A stretch of DNA of 64,000 nt from Gloeobacter morelensis MG652769 (GTDB lineage: Bacteria; Cyanobacteriota; Cyanobacteriia; Gloeobacterales; Gloeobacteraceae): assembly GCF_021018745.1 (NCBI RefSeq), contig NZ_CP063845.1:3100001-3164000 (forward strand), written 5' to 3'. This document shows, in pieces, positions 1,722 through 60,938 of the stretch. Every line of letters starts with the position of its first letter. The stretch's first letter is position 1. The translations under genes were made by a program, and so were the position numbers. Below the pieces are notes generated by a model. The model ran no database searches. It had not been told where the DNA came from and saw only the letters and a list, made by a program, of their open reading frames with translations.

Positions 1722-2798
1722 ATGAACAAGCCCGTCAAGGCCGCCCCGTTCTCCGACCGTCCTGCAACACCCGTGGACGATCTCACTTCCGGGGATCTCG
1801 CCGGGGATCTTCTCGCTATGGCCTCCCGAGAGACCCGGTTGAGAAAGGTGGCTTCCGATACCTCCGGCGCAGACTACACACTCGGTACCGCCGGGACAAC
1901 GGCCATGAACGCAGCATTCGGCGCTGGAGAGCAGAGGCCCGCAACTGACTCTCTTGGTTTGCTTGCCAGTTCGTCCGGCCCGGTCACAGAGGTATCCCTA
2001 ACGGGCACTTCGCTGAATGACACGCTTCTCGGCAGCGATAGCGCCGATTACCTGTATGGCAAAGATGGTAATGACAGCCTGGTCGGTTATGCCGGTAACG
2101 ACTATCTGTACGGCGACAAGGGCAATGACACCCTCAACGGCGGCGACGGCAATGACTACCTGAGCCTCGACGACGGCGACGATAGGCTCGATGCCGGGTT
2201 GGGCGATGACGACGTTCGAGGAGACGCGGGCGACGACGCGATGATCGTCAACTATGCCAGCGGTACGGGCGCCATCAGCCACAGCTTCGGCATCAACAGT
2301 AGCCTCCTGACGGGCAACAACATCGAGAATCTGACGCTCGTGGGCAACGACGCCGTCAACAACCTCGTGGGAGCGGCGGGCAACGACAGCCTGAGCGGAG
2401 CCGGGGGCAACGATACGCTCACGGGCGTCAGCGCCAGTGCAACCACACCGAGCATCAACGAAATCGATACACTCACCGGCGGTACCGGGGTGGACCGCTT
2501 CATCCTGGGCGATAGTGCCAAGTGCTTCTACGAGGACGGCAACACCGGCAGCGGCGGTCTGGGCGATTACGCGCTGATTACCGACTTCAACAGCGCAAAC
2601 GGAGACCTCATTCAGCTCAACGGCACGTCGAGCCAGTATCTGCTGGGTTCCTCACCCGTCTCCGGAGTGAGCGGCACGGCGGTCTACTTCGACACCGACG
2701 GCAGCGGGGCCGTCAATTCGGCCGACGAACTAATAGCCGTCGTGCAGTCGACGAGCACGGTGAGCCTCAGTTCCGGCTTCGTGTTCGTGGGTGGTTGA
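1722..2798 (+). CDS. RTX-type calcium-binding repeat protein
   Basis: A 358-residue acidic protein. After a 100-residue N-terminal region without a Sec signal, several nonapeptide repeats of the GGxGxDxLx type follow (for example YAGNDYLYGDKGNDTLNGGD), then a second small group and a C-terminal domain rich in Asp, Gly and Ser that ends in hydrophobic residues. This is the architecture of type I secreted RTX proteins, where the repeats form a calcium-bound beta-roll. The ATG at 1722 was chosen because GGAG precedes it. The next gene starts two bases after the stop. The substrate and role are unknown. Confidence 0.85.
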   Translation: MNKPVKAAPFSDRPATPVDDLTSGDLAGDLLAMASRETRLRKVASDTSGADYTLGTAGTTAMNAAFGAGEQRPATDSLGLLASSSGPVTEVSLTGTSLNDTLLGSDSADYLYGKDGNDSLVGYAGNDYLYGDKGNDTLNGGDGNDYLSLDDGDDRLDAGLGDDDVRGDAGDDAMIVNYASGTGAISHSFGINSSLLTGNNIENLTLVGNDAVNNLVGAAGNDSLSGAGGNDTLTGVSASATTPSINEIDTLTGGTGVDRFILGDSAKCFYEDGNTGSGGLGDYALITDFNSANGDLIQLNGTSSQYLLGSSPVSGVSGTAVYFDTDGSGAVNSADELIAVVQSTSTVSLSSGFVFVGG

Positions 2799-3801: not shown

Positions 3802-4000
3802 TGACAATCTCGTCTCGCGTGGTTCAACAATCATCCTACCGCCCGCATCCCGGGGTCAGCCTGAGCCGATGGATCAAATGACTCCCGGCCCATCAGGTTT
3901 CGTACAGCTTTGCTTCTCAGCCCCCAATCAACCCGCATCGCTATTGCCAACTATCCTCTTCGCCGCAGTCGACACGCATCGTGCAGGCCCTAGAAGAATA

Positions 4001-4148
4001 AACCCATCCCACCCGCCGAGTCTCCCGCCCATCTTGTCCTGAAGTCCGGGGTGTCGGGGTGGCACGCCCCCGACGCGGGGGGGGGAGAGCGCGAGAGGGG
4101 AACCCGAAGGGGGTTCCGCCTCTCGCCCACCCGCTCTCGTGCCAAGCC
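4001..4148 (+). repeat. GC-rich dispersed repeat, copy A
   Basis: Matches in reverse orientation the sequence at 38516-38665, and part of it matches the split copy at 30342-31725. The core is a long hairpin with arms GCGAGAGGGGAACCC and GGGTTCCGCCTCTCGC. In copy B the corresponding inner arms read GGCACCC and GGGTGCC, so paired positions changed together. Short open frames through the repeat are not credible genes. Confidence 0.8.
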
Positions 4149-4600
4149 AAAAAACCAGCAGATCTCAAAACGGGAGCGCCCGATCGGGTCGGCAGATGGG
4201 CGACAGTTCCAGGCATGGATAGGGTTGAAGGTCAAATCCGAAGCACCCAGCCATCCGGGCTGTAGCGAGAACTTGCAAGTCCAGCCATGTTTGGCAGTTC
4301 AAAACCGGCATCTGCAGCCTGCAATCGATCCAATGGTTTGCAGCGGCAGACGGATTTGCAGCTTTTAGGACCGCACTGAACTTCGCAGACCCAAACACAC
4401 TGAAATATCATCAAAGAATAACTCAGCGTCACCATCGAAAGAACGCCAGAAAGGGAAGTATGCATGGTTCGCTCCAAAAGGGTTTATAGTTACCTATTGC
4501 TGTCGCAGGAAAGCCCAAGTGCCTTCCAATAGAAGTAACGAAAAAACATTCGTCTCTGGCTCAGAACACTGCAATTAAAACAACGATCCCAACCCGATGC
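4149..4600. other. Decayed intergenic sequence
   Basis: No gene can be supported here. The stretch follows repeat copy A and precedes transposon remnants. The 13-mer CTTCCAATAGAAG near 4526 recurs near 6330 upstream of ndhK, but I cannot attach a function to it. Confidence 0.4.
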
Positions 4601-10197: not shown

Positions 10198-10677
10198 TCA
10201 GGCCCCAGAAGCAATCCCCAGATCCCGCAGAATTTGATCGGCGTGCTCCTCGGGTTTGACCTTCCTGTAGATGTAGGCGATGCGGCCCGCTTCGTCGATG
10301 ACGACGGTGTGGCGCAAGATCCCGATTGCAGTGCGGCCCATGAACTTCTTTTCGCCCCACGCGCCGTAGGCTCGGGCGATGGCGCCCTCGGTGTCGGCTA
10401 GTAGCGCAAAGGGCAGGGCGAACTTTTCGGTGAACTTCTGGTGGGAACGCACGCTGTCGGTGCTCACCCCGACTACGGCCACACCCGCCGCCTGCAGTTG
10501 GGTGTAACGGTCGCGCAGGCCGCAGGCCTCCTTGGTGCAGCCGGGGGTGTTGTCGCGCGGATAGAAGTAGAGCACGACTTTTTTGCCGCGCAGATCGGCG
10601 AGCGACAGCCGCTCGCCGCTGGTCTGCTCAGCAGTAAAATCCGGCGCCGGATCGCCTACCTGCAACGGTTCGCTCAT
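10198..10677 (-). CDS. bcp: Peroxiredoxin, Bcp/PrxQ type (copy 2)
   Basis: A 159-residue thiol peroxidase. The active site TPGCTKEACGLRD has the peroxidatic Cys and the resolving Cys five residues later, as in alpha-type PrxQ. It reduces hydrogen peroxide and alkyl peroxides using thioredoxin. It starts 3 bp after the stop of the neighbouring paralogue, so the pair is probably one operon and a tandem duplication. It has a C-terminal extension (RKVKPEEHADQILRDLG) lacking in the other copy. Confidence 0.92.
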   Translation of the reverse strand: MSEPLQVGDPAPDFTAEQTSGERLSLADLRGKKVVLYFYPRDNTPGCTKEACGLRDRYTQLQAAGVAVVGVSTDSVRSHQKFTEKFALPFALLADTEGAIARAYGAWGEKKFMGRTAIGILRHTVVIDEAGRIAYIYRKVKPEEHADQILRDLGIASGA

Positions 10678-10680
10678 CGC

Positions 10681-11118
10681 CTAGACACCGACGGCGGCGA
10701 GCACATCGCTCGCGTGGGAGGCGGTATTGACGGAGGTGAAGACCTGGGAAATCTTGCCCGCTTCGTCGATGACATAGGTGATGCGCTTGGCGTAGTTGCC
10801 GGCGTCGGCGTCGTAGGCTCTGGTCAGCGCACCGTCGGTGTCGGCCAATAGGGCAAAGGGCAGGGCGTACTTGCTGGTAAAGGCTTGGTGGGACGCTTCG
10901 TCGTCCATGCTCACGCCGTAGACACCAATACCCTGGGCCTGATAAGTCGACCAGTTGTCGCGGAAGGAGCAGGCTTCTTTAGTGCAGCCGGGGGTGTCGT
11001 CTTTGGGATAAAAGTAGAGGACAAACTTCTTGCCCGCCAGACTGGCGAGCGACACGGTGTTGCCGTGGGTGTCCTTGGCGGTGAAGTCGGGGGCTTTGTC
11101 TCCGACGTTGAGGGCCAT
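10681..11118 (-). CDS. bcp: Peroxiredoxin, Bcp/PrxQ type (copy 1)
   Basis: A 145-residue PrxQ/Bcp peroxiredoxin with active site TPGCTKEACSFRD and the Bcp start DKAPDFTAKDTHG. It is the promoter-proximal member of the tandem pair. The two proteins keep the same active site but differ in surface loops, which suggests an old duplication. It has no signal peptide and so acts in the cytoplasm. Confidence 0.92.
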   Translation of the reverse strand: MALNVGDKAPDFTAKDTHGNTVSLASLAGKKFVLYFYPKDDTPGCTKEACSFRDNWSTYQAQGIGVYGVSMDDEASHQAFTSKYALPFALLADTDGALTRAYDADAGNYAKRITYVIDEAGKISQVFTSVNTASHASDVLAAVGV

Positions 11119-30104: not shown

Positions 30105-30341
30105 CACTTTTTCCCCAGCACCACTACATCTAGATAGCTCCGGCACCTGTGCTTTAAGCACCCGTCGCAGCCGCCCCCTGCCGGGAGTATAGGGGCGAGA
30201 CCTGTGGGCGGGCACGCGATTTCACTGACATGGGGGGCTTATGTTTGATCATCGCTTCGGATAGCTGCAGGTTGATGAGAAACCCTGGTGGCCAGCGGTT
30301 TTTTCTCCTGCGACCTGAGGCGTGAGACCTGGCGGTTGGTG

Positions 30342-30395
30342 TGGCACGACAGTCTGGGTCGCGAGGGGGGGAAGCACGAAGGGGTTGCCCTCTCG
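30342..30395 (-). repeat. GC-rich dispersed repeat, copy C, left part
   Basis: The sequence up to CCCTCTCG matches copy B at 38516-38565 at diverged but alignable positions. Copy C is cut here by the IS3 element, and the rest continues at 31677. Joining the parts and removing one CTCG restores a B-like CCCTCTCGCGCTCTCC. Confidence 0.7.
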
Positions 30396-30451
30396 TGACT
30401 TGACCCCGAATAATGAGCCGCTGAAAAAGTGAGCTTCCAGTCTGGCTGTCA

Positions 30452-31358
30452 TCATCGTACAGGTTGATGCCCGAGGGGCGACAACGGAGCCCCGACGGCA
30501 GCGAGCTGTTGCAGGAACTCCATCGGGCTTGCCCCTCCCAAAGCACTGTGCGGCCGGTAGGTGTTGTAATCTAGCCGCCATGCCTCAATGGTCCGCCGTG
30601 CGTCCGGTACGTTCAGGAAATAGTGCGCGTTGAGGCATTCATCCCGGAATTTGCCGTTGAAACTTTCGATGTGCGGCTTGTCGGTCGGCTTGCCCGGACG
30701 GGTGAAGGCGATGCGCACGCCACGTCGGGCGGCCCACTCGGCCAGCGTTCGGCAGACGAACTCCGGTCCGTTGTCCACCAGCAATTGCTCGGGCAACTGC
30801 CGCCGGGTGGCCAGACTCTCCAGCACCCGCACGACCCGCGCTGAAGGCAAAGAGGTATCCACTTCTATCTGTGGGCACTCCCGGCTGTAGATATCCACGA
30901 TTGTCAGGGTCCGCAGTTTGCGTCCGTCCGCTAAGGCATCCTCGACAAAGTCCAGGCTCCATACCTGATTGGGACGTTCCAAGCCAGGCACCTCCGGCCG
31001 CTCGCACGGCCGGGTGCGGGGCTTACGCTTTTTTGGGCGCACCAGGGTCGTTGGGGCAACGACCCACCAGCAGTCCCTCCCTGGTGCACAGCCGGTAGAT
31101 TTTTTTGGCGTTGACGAGCGTGCCTTCGCGCCTCAGCAGCAGCGTCAGCCGTCGATAGCCGTAACGTGGGCGCTCGGCGGCCAACTGCTTCAATCGCTCG
31201 ACAAGCACCGGGTCGTCCTTACGGCGCAGGAGAAGACGGGCGGTGGAACGATGCAAGCCCAGCAGCCGACAGGCCCGCCTCTGGGAGAACTGCAGGTCGG
31301 TCTGCAGGAAGGCGACGGCCTGACGTTTGGCCGCTGGGCTCAGAATTTTTTTGACAGC
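30452..31358 (-). pseudogene. IS3 OrfB transposase, frame-disrupted by a 25-bp palindromic insertion
   Basis: Two frames together encode an IS3 integrase-type transposase. The upstream part (RRACRLLGLHRSTARLLLRR, YGYRRLTLLLRREG) runs to a stop near 31023. The downstream part has the DDE core (SLDFVEDALADGR with the first Asp, LLVDNGPEF with the second, HIESFNGKFRDECLNAHYF with the Glu). Removing 25 bp at 31040-31064 rejoins them as REGLLVRPKKRKPRTRP. Expression normally needs a -1 shift at seven A residues at the end of orfA. The copy should be inactive unless supplied with transposase in trans. Confidence 0.85.
31045..31065. repeat. Perfect hairpin inserted in IS3 orfB, flanked by CACCA
   Basis: GGGTCGTTG, GGG, CAACGACCC form a 9-bp perfect stem with a 3-nt loop. 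CACCA occurs immediately before (31040-31044) and as the right flank (31065-31069). The insert plus one CACCA is 25 bp and its removal restores the reading frame. It looks like a small insertion with a 5-bp duplication or the scar of an excised element. Confidence 0.75.
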
Positions 31359-31606
31359 ACCGCCTTGAGGGCATGGATGTCGAGGGCCTGGTCGGCAACG
31401 ATTTGTTTGAGCTTGCGGTTTTCTTCCTCCAGGTCTTTGAGGCGTTGGGCTTCGGAGATTTCCATGCCGCCGTACTTGGCTTTCCAGCGGTAGTAGGTCT
31501 GCTCGCTGATACCATGCCTGCGGCAAAGTTCTGCCACGTTCGCTCCAGCCAGCCCCTCGTTGAGGATGGCAATCATCTGCTCGGTGGTGAACCGACTTTT
31601 CTTCAT
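31340..31606 (-). CDS. IS3 OrfA transposase subunit
   Basis: An 88-residue DNA-binding protein. The helix-turn-helix is IAILNEGLAGANVAELCRRH followed by GISEQTYYRWKAKYGG, and a leucine-zipper-like helix (RLKDLEEENRKLKQIVADQA) follows. It ends SKKF at a TGA just after an A7 run, the expected -1 frameshift site that makes the OrfAB fusion. It appears intact. Confidence 0.88.
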   Translation of the reverse strand: MKKSRFTTEQMIAILNEGLAGANVAELCRRHGISEQTYYRWKAKYGGMEISEAQRLKDLEEENRKLKQIVADQALDIHALKAVLSKKF

Positions 31607-31676
31607 GGTCGTCCTCGCGGTGTGGTTCGCCGGAAGACTCACATTCTAAGCGGTTCACTTTTGCGGTCGCACGTCA

Positions 31677-31725
31677 CTCGCGCTCTCCAACCTCCCCGAC
31701 ACCCCCCGGACTTGTGGGATGGGCT
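31677..31725 (-). repeat. GC-rich dispersed repeat, copy C, right part
   Basis: CTCGCGCTCTCC, CCCCGACACCCCCCGGACTT and GTGGGATGGGC match copy B in the same order, but segments between them are missing. The first CTCG is the IS3 target duplication. Copy C is the most degraded of the three copies. Confidence 0.7.
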
Positions 31726-32183
31726 TATGCTTAATTACGCCCAGGATTGAAGGGCGTAGGGTGTCACGGCGGCTTCAAAAGACTTGAGAACTTCGTCATG
31801 GAGGGCTGACAAGCGGGAGGCAAGTCTGTTTAGACTAAATGTCTCTCGCTTTTCGTAGAACGCATCTGTAGCGACGACAGCATGACGGCCGTCGATCCGC
31901 GTAAATCTCGGGCGCACCCTGGGTGCGGAACCCACCAGCTCAAGCGGCAAGCCCACGCGACCATCCTGGATAAGCACCCGAGAAATCAGTTGGCCGACCG
32001 GAGTGCTCGTCAGGGTCTCGCTCAACAAAAAAGCGAGATCCCCGGTGAGCTTTTGTGATAGACCAAGCACTTCAGGTTCGAGGTGATTTGCCAGGGATTC
32101 ATCATCTTTCGGTAGCACCGTGTCTAGGTAGCGCAACCCGATGCACTCGGTGAAGTCGAGTTTCAAGGGTTCATGAACGATAG

Positions 32184-38416: not shown

Positions 38417-38515
38417 AGTCGCCCACAGACTCCTATCGAATCCGGGTGAAGGGGTGTGGTTCTCATCGGATACTGCCCTTGTGGCCGTTTTTTCATTGGG
38501 TCTTGGGGGATTCGC

Positions 38516-38665
38516 TTGGCCCGACAGCGGGTGGGCGAGAGGCGGCACCCCCTTCGGGTGCCCCTCTCGCGCTCTCCCCCTCCCCGCCTCGCGGGGGTGC
38601 CACCCCCCCGACACCCCCCGGACTGGATGGCGCGGTAGGCGGGAGACTTTGTGGGTGGGATGGGC
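38516..38665 (-). repeat. GC-rich dispersed repeat, copy B
   Basis: The reverse complement matches copy A at 4001-4148 across the whole unit, including the outer segments CATCCCACCC and GTCTCCCGCC. The hairpin arms here are GGCACCC/GGGTGCC where copy A has GGAACCC/GGGTTCC. The unit lies between the RHH-type gene and the M15 peptidase gene. Open frames through it are artefacts of its GC content. Confidence 0.85.
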
Positions 38666-38741
38666 AGAGCTTTCCAGTGCGTGCACGCTTTGCGTGGCGA
38701 CTGCGCCGAGGCGGGTTCAAAGATATCAGAGGTTGTGCCGG

Positions 38742-51674: not shown

Positions 51675-52085
51675 ATGTTCAAAAAACTCAGTCCCAACCT
51701 GTTCGTCGAGGATGTGGGCCGTGCGCTCGATTTTTACGAGACGGTGCTTGGCTTCAAGCGCCTGATGACACTTCCTGATCGGGCTCCCTTCGCCTGGGGG
51801 CTGGTGCAGGCAGGCGGCGTCGAGCTGATGTTCCAGTCCTTTGAGAGCCTAAAAGACGATCCGCTACCCATCGAAGGCCGACAGTCAGGCGGGACGCTCA
51901 ATCTCTATATCGAGGTCGACGATGTTGAAGCGCTCTACGAGAAATTGCGCACCCAGGTCTCGGTCGTGCGCGAACCGAACACGACCTTCTACGGCATGCG
52001 CGAATTTTTGATGCTCGACCCCGACGGTTATTTGCTCACCTTCGCCCAGCCGGTCGAACCAGCTAGCGCCCCGGCCGGGGGGTAA
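51675..52085 (+). CDS. VOC-family (glyoxalase-like) protein
   Basis: A 136-residue protein with the paired beta-alpha-beta-beta-beta modules of the vicinal oxygen chelate fold: NLFVEDVGRALDFYETVLGF at the start and FYGMREFLMLDPDGYLLTFA at the end. The family includes glyoxalase I, dioxygenases and resistance proteins. The activity cannot be assigned. It stands alone and converges with the FG-GAP gene. Confidence 0.82.
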   Translation: MFKKLSPNLFVEDVGRALDFYETVLGFKRLMTLPDRAPFAWGLVQAGGVELMFQSFESLKDDPLPIEGRQSGGTLNLYIEVDDVEALYEKLRTQVSVVREPNTTFYGMREFLMLDPDGYLLTFAQPVEPASAPAGG

Positions 52086-53427
52086 CCGTAAAGTTGCCCG
52101 CGCTGGTGGCATTGCCCGCCGGGGTGGTGACCACGATCTTGCCGGTGGTTGCCCCCCGGGGTACACGCACCTGGATCTGCGTGGCGGAGAGCACCGCAAA
52201 GGAGCGGGCGCCCGCACCGCCAAAAGTCACAGCGCTGGCGCCGGTGAAGTTGGTGCCGGTGATCGTGACGAGCGTGCCCACCGGGCCGGAGGTGGGGCTA
52301 AAGCCGGCGATAGTCGGCAGGGCGACCTCCGTGTTGATCAGCACCGAGACATTGTCGGAGTCGCTGTTGGCGGTGAGCAACTCCAGGTCGCCGTCGCCGT
52401 CGAGATCCCCGGCGGCGATCGAGCGCGGCTCGCTGCCGACGGCGAAGTTGATCGCCGGGCTCAAAACGGCGCTGCCGTTGTTGAGGAGTACTGAGACGGT
52501 GCCAGATTCCTGGTTGGCCGTCGCCACGTCCAGGTCGCCGTCGCCGTCGAGATCCCCGGCAACGACCGCGCGCGGGTTGACATCGACCGTCACGTTCTGG
52601 CTGACGGCAAAGGTGCCGTTCCCGGCGTTCTTGAGCACGGAGAGGTTGGTGGCAAAGCGGTTGGCCACCGCCAGATCCAGATCGCCGTCGCCGTCGAGGT
52701 CGGCGGGAGTCAGGGCTCTGGCCCCCTCGCCGGTGGCGATGGTCTGATTGAGGGTGAAGCTTGCCGCCCCGTTGTTGAGAAGCACCGATACGTCGTTCGA
52801 GAAGCGGTTGGCAGTGGCCAAGTCGAGATCGCCGTCGCCGTCAAAATCGCCGCTGGTGAGGCCGAAGGGGCCGTCTCCGACGCCAAATTCACTCCCGACT
52901 GTGAAGTTGGCGTTGCCGTTGTTGGGCAAAAGGGTGACGCTGTCGTCGAAGCGGTTGGCGATGGCCAGGTCCAGATCGCCGTCGTCGTCGAAGTCGCCTG
53001 CCACCATAAAAAACGGATCCTCGCGCAGGCGCACGACCTGAGAAACGGTAAAAGTGGCGCTGCCGTTGTTTTTGAGGATGGTCAGGTCGTCGGAGAGGCG
53101 GTTGGCCGCGGCGATATCCAGATCGCCGTCGCCGTCTAGATCGCCCACGGCGATGGTCTCCGGCGAATCGCCCACCGCCACGAAGCGGGCCGGGGCAAAA
53201 GTGGCATCGCCATTATTGATGAGAATCGAGACGTCGTCGGAATCCTGGGTGGCCGCCACTACGTCAAGATCGCCGTCGCCATCGAGATCCCCCGTCAAGA
53301 CGGTCCCCGGGTACAGCCCCACCGGAATGTTGCGGGCCGGGGCAAAATTCACCTGCGCGCGCAAGGCCGGGGCGTAGATTGCCAGCGAAGCTGCGAGTCC
53401 CAGTCCCATCCACCAGAGGTTTCTCAT
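52063..53427 (-). CDS. Secreted FG-GAP/VCBS repeat protein with IPT domain
   Basis: A 454-residue protein with signal peptide (GLGLAASLAIYAPALRAQ). Seven tandem repeats of about 48 residues follow, each with a calcium-binding D(L/F)DGDGDLDxA loop and ending in INNG or similar. They form an integrin-like beta propeller. A C-terminal IPT/TIG domain follows (TIAGFSPTSGPVGTLVTITG). It is probably a cell-surface protein. DNA-level repetition here explains apparent repeat signals. Confidence 0.9.
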   Translation of the reverse strand: MRNLWWMGLGLAASLAIYAPALRAQVNFAPARNIPVGLYPGTVLTGDLDGDGDLDVVAATQDSDDVSILINNGDATFAPARFVAVGDSPETIAVGDLDGDGDLDIAAANRLSDDLTILKNNGSATFTVSQVVRLREDPFFMVAGDFDDDGDLDLAIANRFDDSVTLLPNNGNANFTVGSEFGVGDGPFGLTSGDFDGDGDLDLATANRFSNDVSVLLNNGAASFTLNQTIATGEGARALTPADLDGDGDLDLAVANRFATNLSVLKNAGNGTFAVSQNVTVDVNPRAVVAGDLDGDGDLDVATANQESGTVSVLLNNGSAVLSPAINFAVGSEPRSIAAGDLDGDGDLELLTANSDSDNVSVLINTEVALPTIAGFSPTSGPVGTLVTITGTNFTGASAVTFGGAGARSFAVLSATQIQVRVPRGATTGKIVVTTPAGNATSAGNFTVTPRPGR

Positions 53428-59916: not shown

Positions 59917-60870
59917 ATGGAACAGTTCGATTTTGACGTAGTGATCGTAGGCGGTGGTCCGGCCGGTTGTACGTGTGCGCTGTACACTGCCCGCTCCGAA
60001 CTCAAGACGGTCATTCTGGATAAGAACCCGGCGGCCGGCGCCCTCGCCATCACCCACAAGATTGCCAACTACCCCGGGGTGCCCGGGGAGATGAGCGGCG
60101 ATCACCTGCTTGAAGTGATGCGCGATCAGGCCGTCGAATTCGGAACCGTTTACCGGCGCGCCCAGGTCTACGGCCTCGACCTTAGCGAGCCGGTCAAAAA
60201 AGTCTATACTCCAGAAGGAGTCTTCACCGGCCGTGCCCTGGTGCTCGCCACCGGGGCGATGGGCCGTATCGCGTCGATTCCTGGCGAGGCGGAGTACCTG
60301 GGGCGGGGGGTGAGCTACTGCGCCACCTGCGACGGGGCATTTTACCGCAACCGCGAGGTGGTGGTGGTCGGCCTCAACCCCGAGGCCGTCGAAGAGGCCC
60401 AGGTGCTCACCAAGTTTGCTTCGACGGTGCACTGGATCACTCCCAAAGACCCCCACACCCTGGACGGCCACGCCGACGATCTGCTGGCCCACCCGTCGGT
60501 CAAGCTCTGGGAGAAGACGCGCCTGATTCGCATCAAGGGCGAGGAGGCGGGGGTGACCGCCGTCGAGGTGCGCCACCCGGGTGAATCCGATAGTCAGGAG
60601 TTAGCGGCGGAAGGGGTGTTTGTCTACCTGCAGGGCTCGAAGCCGATCACCGACTTTGTGGCGGGCCAGGTCGAGATGAAACCCGACGGCGGCGTCTGGG
60701 TCGACGAGATGATGCAGACTTCGGTACCCGGCGTCTGGGCGATCGGTGACATCCGCAACACGCCCTTTAAGCAGGCGGTGGTGGCGGCGGGGGACGGCTG
60801 CATCGCGGCGATGGCCATCGACCGCTTCCTCAACAGCCGCAAAGCGATCAAGCCCGACTGGGCGCATTAG
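59917..60870 (+). CDS. Thioredoxin-reductase-like flavoprotein without NADPH motifs
   Basis: A 317-residue protein with the low-molecular-weight thioredoxin reductase layout. The FAD loop is VVIVGGGPAGCTCALYTAR, the redox CxxC is SYCATCDGAF (C135, C138), and the second FAD contact is VWAIGDIRNTPFKQAVVAAG. The NADPH loop GxGxxA reads VVVVGLNPEAVEEAQV, and the HRR-type 2'-phosphate site is absent (WITPKDPHTLDG). It therefore resembles ferredoxin-dependent or NADPH-independent relatives (FFTR, DDOR or DTR types) known from Gloeobacter and Clostridium. Confidence 0.85.
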   Translation: MEQFDFDVVIVGGGPAGCTCALYTARSELKTVILDKNPAAGALAITHKIANYPGVPGEMSGDHLLEVMRDQAVEFGTVYRRAQVYGLDLSEPVKKVYTPEGVFTGRALVLATGAMGRIASIPGEAEYLGRGVSYCATCDGAFYRNREVVVVGLNPEAVEEAQVLTKFASTVHWITPKDPHTLDGHADDLLAHPSVKLWEKTRLIRIKGEEAGVTAVEVRHPGESDSQELAAEGVFVYLQGSKPITDFVAGQVEMKPDGGVWVDEMMQTSVPGVWAIGDIRNTPFKQAVVAAGDGCIAAMAIDRFLNSRKAIKPDWAH

Positions 60871-60938
60871 AGCAGGTGTCAGGCTAGATGACTGAAAAAA
60901 CGCTAAAGAACGACCAGGGCCGGCTCGCGGGCGATGCT

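Follow-up and report, generated by a model that had tools for sequence, protein, structure and literature searches.

Several families of small repeats offer points of comparison for the Gloeobacter repeat analyzed here. The bacterial TA-target MITEs RUP, Correia/NEMIS and ERIC are short, have TA termini and inverted terminal sequences, are rich in hairpins, and occur in tens of copies that are mostly intergenic, and our element is like them in each of these properties (tabulated in PMC2229807). One of them, RUP, is mobilized by IS630-Spn1. The Nezha MITE and the small dispersed repeats of other cyanobacteria, as cited in PMC3733652, are likewise small, mobile and intergenic, and none is reported for Gloeobacter in the literature searched. 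REP, REPIN and BIME palindromes resemble our repeat as extragenic hairpins at gene ends, some of which stand in inverted pairs. When both arms of a repeat change together, the change is commonly taken to prove a functional RNA, and the family described here is a worked warning about that reading. We consider it likely that this repeat forms the conserved core of a non-autonomous, MITE-like family confined to a group of Gloeobacter species and shaped by insertion at stop codons, conversion between copies, and maintenance of the stems.

Copies of the repeat in the window

The window is a stretch of 64,000 nucleotides from the chromosome of Gloeobacter morelensis MG652769 (4,921,229 bp; genome G000 below), in which a first-pass annotation had marked a hairpin repeat at positions 4001-4148, an inverted copy at 38.5 kb, and a third copy at 30.3/31.7 kb. 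The repeat at the first site (copy A) outruns 4001-4148 and starts at least as far left as 3961. Its core spans 3961-4154 on the forward strand, with left end CGCCGCAGTCGACACGC and right end GTGCCAAGCC, and is matched by a profile built from 28 genomic copies (E 1e-52) and by a covariance model at 4010-4152. Copy B, on the reverse strand, was delimited as a whole element at 38434-38731 by alignment of the filled site with the empty site in genome G001. Its core lies at 38510-38708 (reverse strand; profile E 8.8e-52; covariance model 38509-38657), and its type-2 end, TATCGAATCCGGGTGAAG, matches the end pattern with 0 mismatches at 38434-38451, while its other end is approximate. As had been claimed, A and B stand in inverted orientation to each other, with 92% complementarity across the best ungapped 74 nt; their alignment runs to about 200 nt, longer than the 150 first proposed, and their arms read as previously given, GGAACCC/GGGTTCC in A and GGCACCC/GGGTGCC in B.

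In copy A, hairpin H2 occupies 4053-4074 (forward strand; GTCGGGG-TGGCA-C-G-CCCCCGAC). Hairpin H3 of copy A, at 4091-4126 (forward strand), is in the state AA/TT and has a DNA fold of -17.3 kcal/mol (z -4.5), and that of copy B, at 38535-38570 (reverse strand), is in the state CA/TG and has a DNA fold of -18.7 kcal/mol (z -4.7), so that both fold as DNA far better than shuffles (z about -4.5). Folded as RNA, the whole of copy A is unexceptional (z -1.6 and -1.3), and it is H3 alone that is exceptional.

The proposed third copy does contain family sequence, but it is not intact, being degraded and split by an IS3-type insertion sequence. Its right piece (30270-30413, reverse strand) and its left piece (GCCCATCCCACAAGTCCGGGGGGTGTCGGGGAGG; 31658-31730, reverse strand) reach local alignment scores of 36 and 31, respectively, against a shuffle maximum of 23, and the half that contains the H3 part fits the opposite orientation slightly better (33 on the forward strand versus 25 on the reverse). 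The insertion sequence between them (30414-31657, reverse strand; 1.24 kb) has imperfect ends, TGAGCCGCTGAAAAAGTGAG / TGAACCGCTTAGAATGTGAG, and encodes the Pfam domains HTH_Tnp_1 and rve/rve_3.

Three other features of the window were recorded along the way. Upstream of a PPIC-type rotamase and copy A, ORF 1959-2798 (forward strand) encodes RTX calcium-binding nonapeptide repeats. Within ORF 52063-53427 (reverse strand), seven 147-bp direct repeats stand in register (49 codons each) at 52332-53331 and are 61-73% alike to the reference copy; the product is probably a protein with internal repeats. At 10361-11094, two blocks recur at a spacing of 447 bp and are 70-71% alike, apparently a duplicated gene.

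Anatomy of the core and of the element ends

Read in order, the core consists of a short left hairpin (CACGC..GCGTG/CGTGC), spacer 1, H2 (GTCGGGG..TGGCA..CCCCGAC), H3 (CGAGAGGGGAACCC-GAAGG-GGGTTCC-G-CCTCTCG), spacer 2, and the right end GTGCCAAGCC. This core of about 200 bp is nested in a longer element of about 250-450 bp, whose ends are, in short form, TA-GAGCGGTTTTCAGTTG and TA-TCGAATCCGCGT. Type-1 ends read TA-GAGCaGGTGTCAGG and CAACTGAAAACCGCTC-TA, type-2 ends read TA-TCGAATCCGCGT and CTTCACCCGGATTCGA-TA, and individual copies are mosaics of the two. Core-less short elements with type-1 ends are also present (about 50-110 bp), and the alignment contains frame-breaking indels between copies. 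Terminal inverted repeats take the form TCCTATCGAATCCG(C/G)GTG at both ends of the copy at G000:4452296 and TAGAGC..GCTCTA in type-1 and short solo elements; they are clear in few copies and weak or absent in many decayed ones.

Hairpin repeats that lie between genes, close to gene ends, in tens of copies and sometimes as inverted pairs could also be palindromes of the REP/REPIN type moved by a Y1 (RAYT) transposase. The foot of H3, however, carries no GTAG or CGTC tag, its flanks reading GGAGAGCG and, mostly, CCCAC in 28 aligned copies, and the TA ends and inverted repeats point instead to a DDE transposase; we consider a REP-type origin very unlikely.

Family size and distribution

The suggestion that the genome holds many copies was borne out by a genome-wide search with the covariance model, which finds 52 in G000, along with 48 in G001 (4,659,019 bp) and 39 in G002. 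The same model finds 0 copies in G003, the fourth genome of the genus, and 0 in G004, and a scan under stricter filters found 0 in 291 other cyanobacteria. A DNA-match search of G000 gave at least 40 copies, and a profile search of the regions fetched around copies gave 56 matches including fragments. Within one genome, the mean identity of the repeat is 82-86% over about 200 bp. We found no description of the repeat in Gloeobacter in the open literature searched, coverage of which is incomplete. A phage or virus origin was considered and rejected, the H3 pattern being without a match in viral contigs.

Some loci show rearrangement beyond the repeat itself. Copy B and the copy at G000:4452296 (L138), 1.3 Mb apart, have identical cores and similar right flanks, and the locus was therefore probably duplicated as a larger segment. 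Two short remnants with type-2 right ends and neither H2 nor H3 (L177, G000:3578063; L178, G001:3886962) are followed by similar sequence in both genomes, L178 keeping the left hairpin of the core, and they look like deletion remnants. At G000:3415223 (L145), the sequence beside the copy has the right end (CAGACTGTCGTGCAAAACCAGCTGCCAGGATTAAAAGC) twice in about 100 bp.

Stop codons at the element ends

At 37 of the 41 recognizable type-1 ends, the TAG (or TAA) of the element serves as the stop for the gene that runs into it, and some elements supply stop codons on both sides. As a baseline, stop codons contain 2.2% of all TA dinucleotides found in that DNA, with genes predicted by a simple codon-usage caller written for this analysis rather than taken from curated annotation. 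One such end without a core, TAGAGCAGGTGTCAGG, lies in the window at 60868-60883 (forward strand), where ORF 59917-60870 stops at its TAG. In an open-frame test, 29 of 32 type-1 ends with a core fell on a stop codon. With up to 3 mismatches allowed, 23 of 52 core-less matches did so too, and a large share of the weaker ones among these matches probably arose by chance. Proteins whose genes are ended by a type-1 TAG/TAA can have natural C-termini, as seen for pyruvate kinase, in which PK_C is matched as far as profile position 114/114, and for an OprB porin, matched as far as 372/372; for the two genes tested the homologs in G003 and G004, genomes without the element, align to the last residues. 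Type-2 ends do not share this pattern, a predicted stop codon immediately preceding 3 of 16.

An element that enters the TA of a stop codon restores TAG there, since its type-1 end begins TA-GAGC. Targeting of TA together with the terminal G would thus make insertions in stop codons harmless, and such insertions would be retained. We found no description of stop-codon-supplying ends in the open literature searched, within its incomplete coverage. The copies are also distributed unevenly with respect to gene orientation, with 71 of 114 (62%) between convergent genes, compared to 202 of 1326 background gaps; tandem genes flank 34 of the 114 (798 of 1326 background gaps), and divergent genes flank 9 (326 of 1326).

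Copies at 3' ends, mostly between convergent genes, would also be expected if the hairpin core were a functional RNA-level element kept by selection at gene ends, with the mobile ends as its vehicle. Such an element could act as an mRNA 3' stabilizer or as a processing or termination signal, and the paired changes in its arms would be compensatory. We regard this as possible though not probable. The 3' position is explained by ends landing on stop codons, no terminator-like or promoter-like site occurs at A or B, and no Rfam family (Rfam 15) reaches its gathering score, the only hit in the window being a tRNA and nothing at copy A coming near threshold. The search for intrinsic terminators, defined as a G+C-rich hairpin with a T run, returned 0 at A and B on either strand, and that for promoters at the two copies found none.

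Filled and empty sites and the search for a partner

Comparison of G000 with G001 revealed five sites at which one species has the element and the other lacks it, the site of copy B among them; the count is too low, since only regions around copies were compared. These empty sites agree with the earlier proposal of a non-autonomous element. About half of the full-length copies in G000 occupy sites that are also filled in a sister genome. At the cleanest junction, G001 reads GTT-TA-[GGTGAGG..CGCTAA]-TA-AACC and G000 reads GTT-TG-AACC. Many copies have TA at both ends, but this cleanest empty site has TG where TA is expected; a TA duplication is therefore likely rather than proven, and few sites bear on it.

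The first-pass annotation had also raised the prospect of a partner transposase with matching ends, and none was found among the families checked. Elements of the IS630 type (PF13358) and with DUF4096 (PF13340) have other ends than the repeat, and a direct search of G000 and G001 found no IS-sized inverted pair of either end pattern. Since the transposase families tested were IS630-type and DUF4096 only, we call the element MITE-like in its mode of working only and do not claim the IS630 label. A composite transposon with long inverted repeats was rejected as well, as inverted copy pairs 1.3-6 kb apart enclose different genes; matches between inverted copy pairs are orthologous loci in sister genomes.

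Pairing and covariation in the hairpins

Across 117 distinct rows, 10 of the 14 H3 pairs never vary and one has changed on both sides, while the top pair is broken in 26 sequences, mostly by an inner-stem insertion variant that is present in 14 of 20 copies in G002 and 1 of 41 in G001. An identical 40-mer is common to 40 of the 106 copies with a readable H3, and divergence is below 1% in the most constant stretches of H3, compared to about 20-33% between paralogs and 13-22% between orthologs in spacers 1 and 2. The idea that folding is preserved therefore holds with respect to the invariant pairs of H3 among diverging spacers, but covariation in H3 is limited to one pair. The inner pair of H2 is a better paired variable than that of H3: next to TGGCA, it is C.G in 55 copies, G.C in 48 and G.T in 1 (unread in 3), and at nine sites the orthologs carry different states of it. 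Comparison with shuffled controls favors pairing overall, although related sequences beat such shuffles easily and the alignment used for pairing was fitted to the structure. Selection on an RNA would suit a nearly invariant H3 among varying spacers, an unpaired bulge that is among the commonest variable sites, and an inner H2 pair that flips between C-G and G-C with one break in 104.

The paired change of H3 from AA/TT to CA/TG is seen in 13 of 45 copies in G000 and in none of the 61 from G001 and G002 (Fisher p 5e-6), and five of the CA/TG copies have orthologs in sister genomes, all of which are AA/TT. The half-changed state AA/TG occurs only in G000, in two full-length copies and one partial copy (L015). 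Compensation that arose repeatedly, as the paired arms of A and B had seemed to imply, does not fit a change whose copies all lie in one genome while the sisters keep AA/TT at five sites, nor did the arms prove free of uncompensated change, given AA/TG in three copies and a broken top pair in 26; this is an outcome that the first-pass annotation had itself named as one that would refute its inference. Because CA/TG is confined to G000 and its orthologs are AA/TT, the change probably spread between copies instead of being compensated again and again. It is best read as one event that was then copied within one species, which also counts against a compensatory role in RNA.

The stems might alternatively be preserved by mutation alone, with template switching copying arm onto arm and conversion spreading the result, so that no function would be needed; quasi-palindrome switching would then make an apparent compensation in one step. 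The half-changed AA/TG state, restricted to the genome that has CA/TG, fits this explanation, and it is documented that hairpins can arise and persist through template switching (PMC8794818). Switching, however, matches the arms but lets the pair drift, yet most H3 pairs never vary, and constraint and conversion are not separable within H3. As a full account of the stems, we find mutation alone doubtful.

Concerted evolution of the core

Hairpin haplotypes are species-specific even at sites that are filled in sister genomes. Of the orthologous pairs, 29 keep a conserved left flank. Over the 100 bases lying just beyond the core on that side, these pairs are on average 92% identical, but the mean for spacer 1 is 81%, with about half of the pairs at 60-78% and some at 92-98%; the level for spacer 1 of unrelated copies is 72%. 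This broad spread of identities is as occasional replacement would give. The species-specific haplotypes at orthologous sites, and the spacers at paralog level inside conserved flanks, are direct observations. Best matches are more often in the same genome than in the other, most strongly for H2-H3, and the excess is mostly absent in the first 30 nt of the core. Mean identity by itself groups the cores weakly by species, so the argument rests on the orthologous sites.

Taken alone, faster mutation of the spacers would not produce species-specific H3 haplotypes at shared sites, and recent transposition cannot change old sites. Both considerations favor ectopic gene conversion, which probably spread the paired change, a step that we infer rather than observe. 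Conversion alone does not slow substitution, so the near-invariance of H3 also needs selection or template switching, and the data do not separate selection on the hairpin from arm-to-arm template switching.

Haplotypes could instead have come from recent transposition bursts of different master copies in each species. Elements were still being gained or lost once the species had separated, as the empty sites show, the excess similarity within genomes is moderate, and recent species-specific transposition would also make paralogs alike, which counts against conversion, though it does not do so at sites filled in all species. However, where two or three species share a filled site, with flanks mostly 90-97% identical, the haplotypes are not the same, and a burst into new sites cannot alter old ones; we judge bursts quite unlikely as the source.

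Discussion

Our preferred reading, a MITE-like family with a conserved core, can be stated as a series of steps. A transposase acting in trans, and perhaps lost since, would have inserted elements at TA dinucleotides. Insertions in the TA of stop codons would have been harmless and would have been retained, for the most part where genes converge. Once in place, the core would not simply have decayed, as ectopic conversion between dispersed copies would spread variants within each genome, and the H2 and H3 stems would stay paired because broken variants are either removed by selection or repaired arm to arm by template switching. Copy number, empty and filled sites, the position of ends at stop codons, and the invariance of the stems are the observations from which this account sets out.

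A stronger form of copying may also be imagined, in which the H2-H3 block is an actively self-copying unit and the ends of its host element carry stops in both directions. The hairpin or a cruciform might promote breaks or strand invasion, allowing a variant to convert paralogs across the chromosome and to spread at a rate above that of ordinary recombination, in the manner of a gene drive acting inside a single genome, and the two-way stop-codon ends would let the element enter between convergent genes at little cost. We think this unlikely. Under the preferred reading of a MITE-like family, one paired change copied in one species provides a natural system in which to test how short repeats evolve in concert in a bacterial chromosome. 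The stop-codon ends illustrate one way for a mobile element to enter a gene-dense genome at little cost, and they give a prediction that is checkable in any genome with TA-target elements.

Comparison with known systems

In contrast to REP, REPIN and BIME palindromes, the Gloeobacter repeat has TA ends, no GTAG/CGTC tag at H3, a far longer conserved unit, and a lower copy number. Nezha and the small repeats of other cyanobacteria are set beside it here by general description, as cited in PMC3733652. Compared to the TA-target MITEs, the Gloeobacter element is longer (250-450 bp with the core), has two kinds of ends, occurs as mosaic copies, and yielded no partner insertion sequence among the families checked; its ends supply stop codons and its core evolves in concert. 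The family is thus MITE-like and of a known kind, and two of its properties are unusual, the stop-codon-supplying ends and the hairpin core that evolves in concert.
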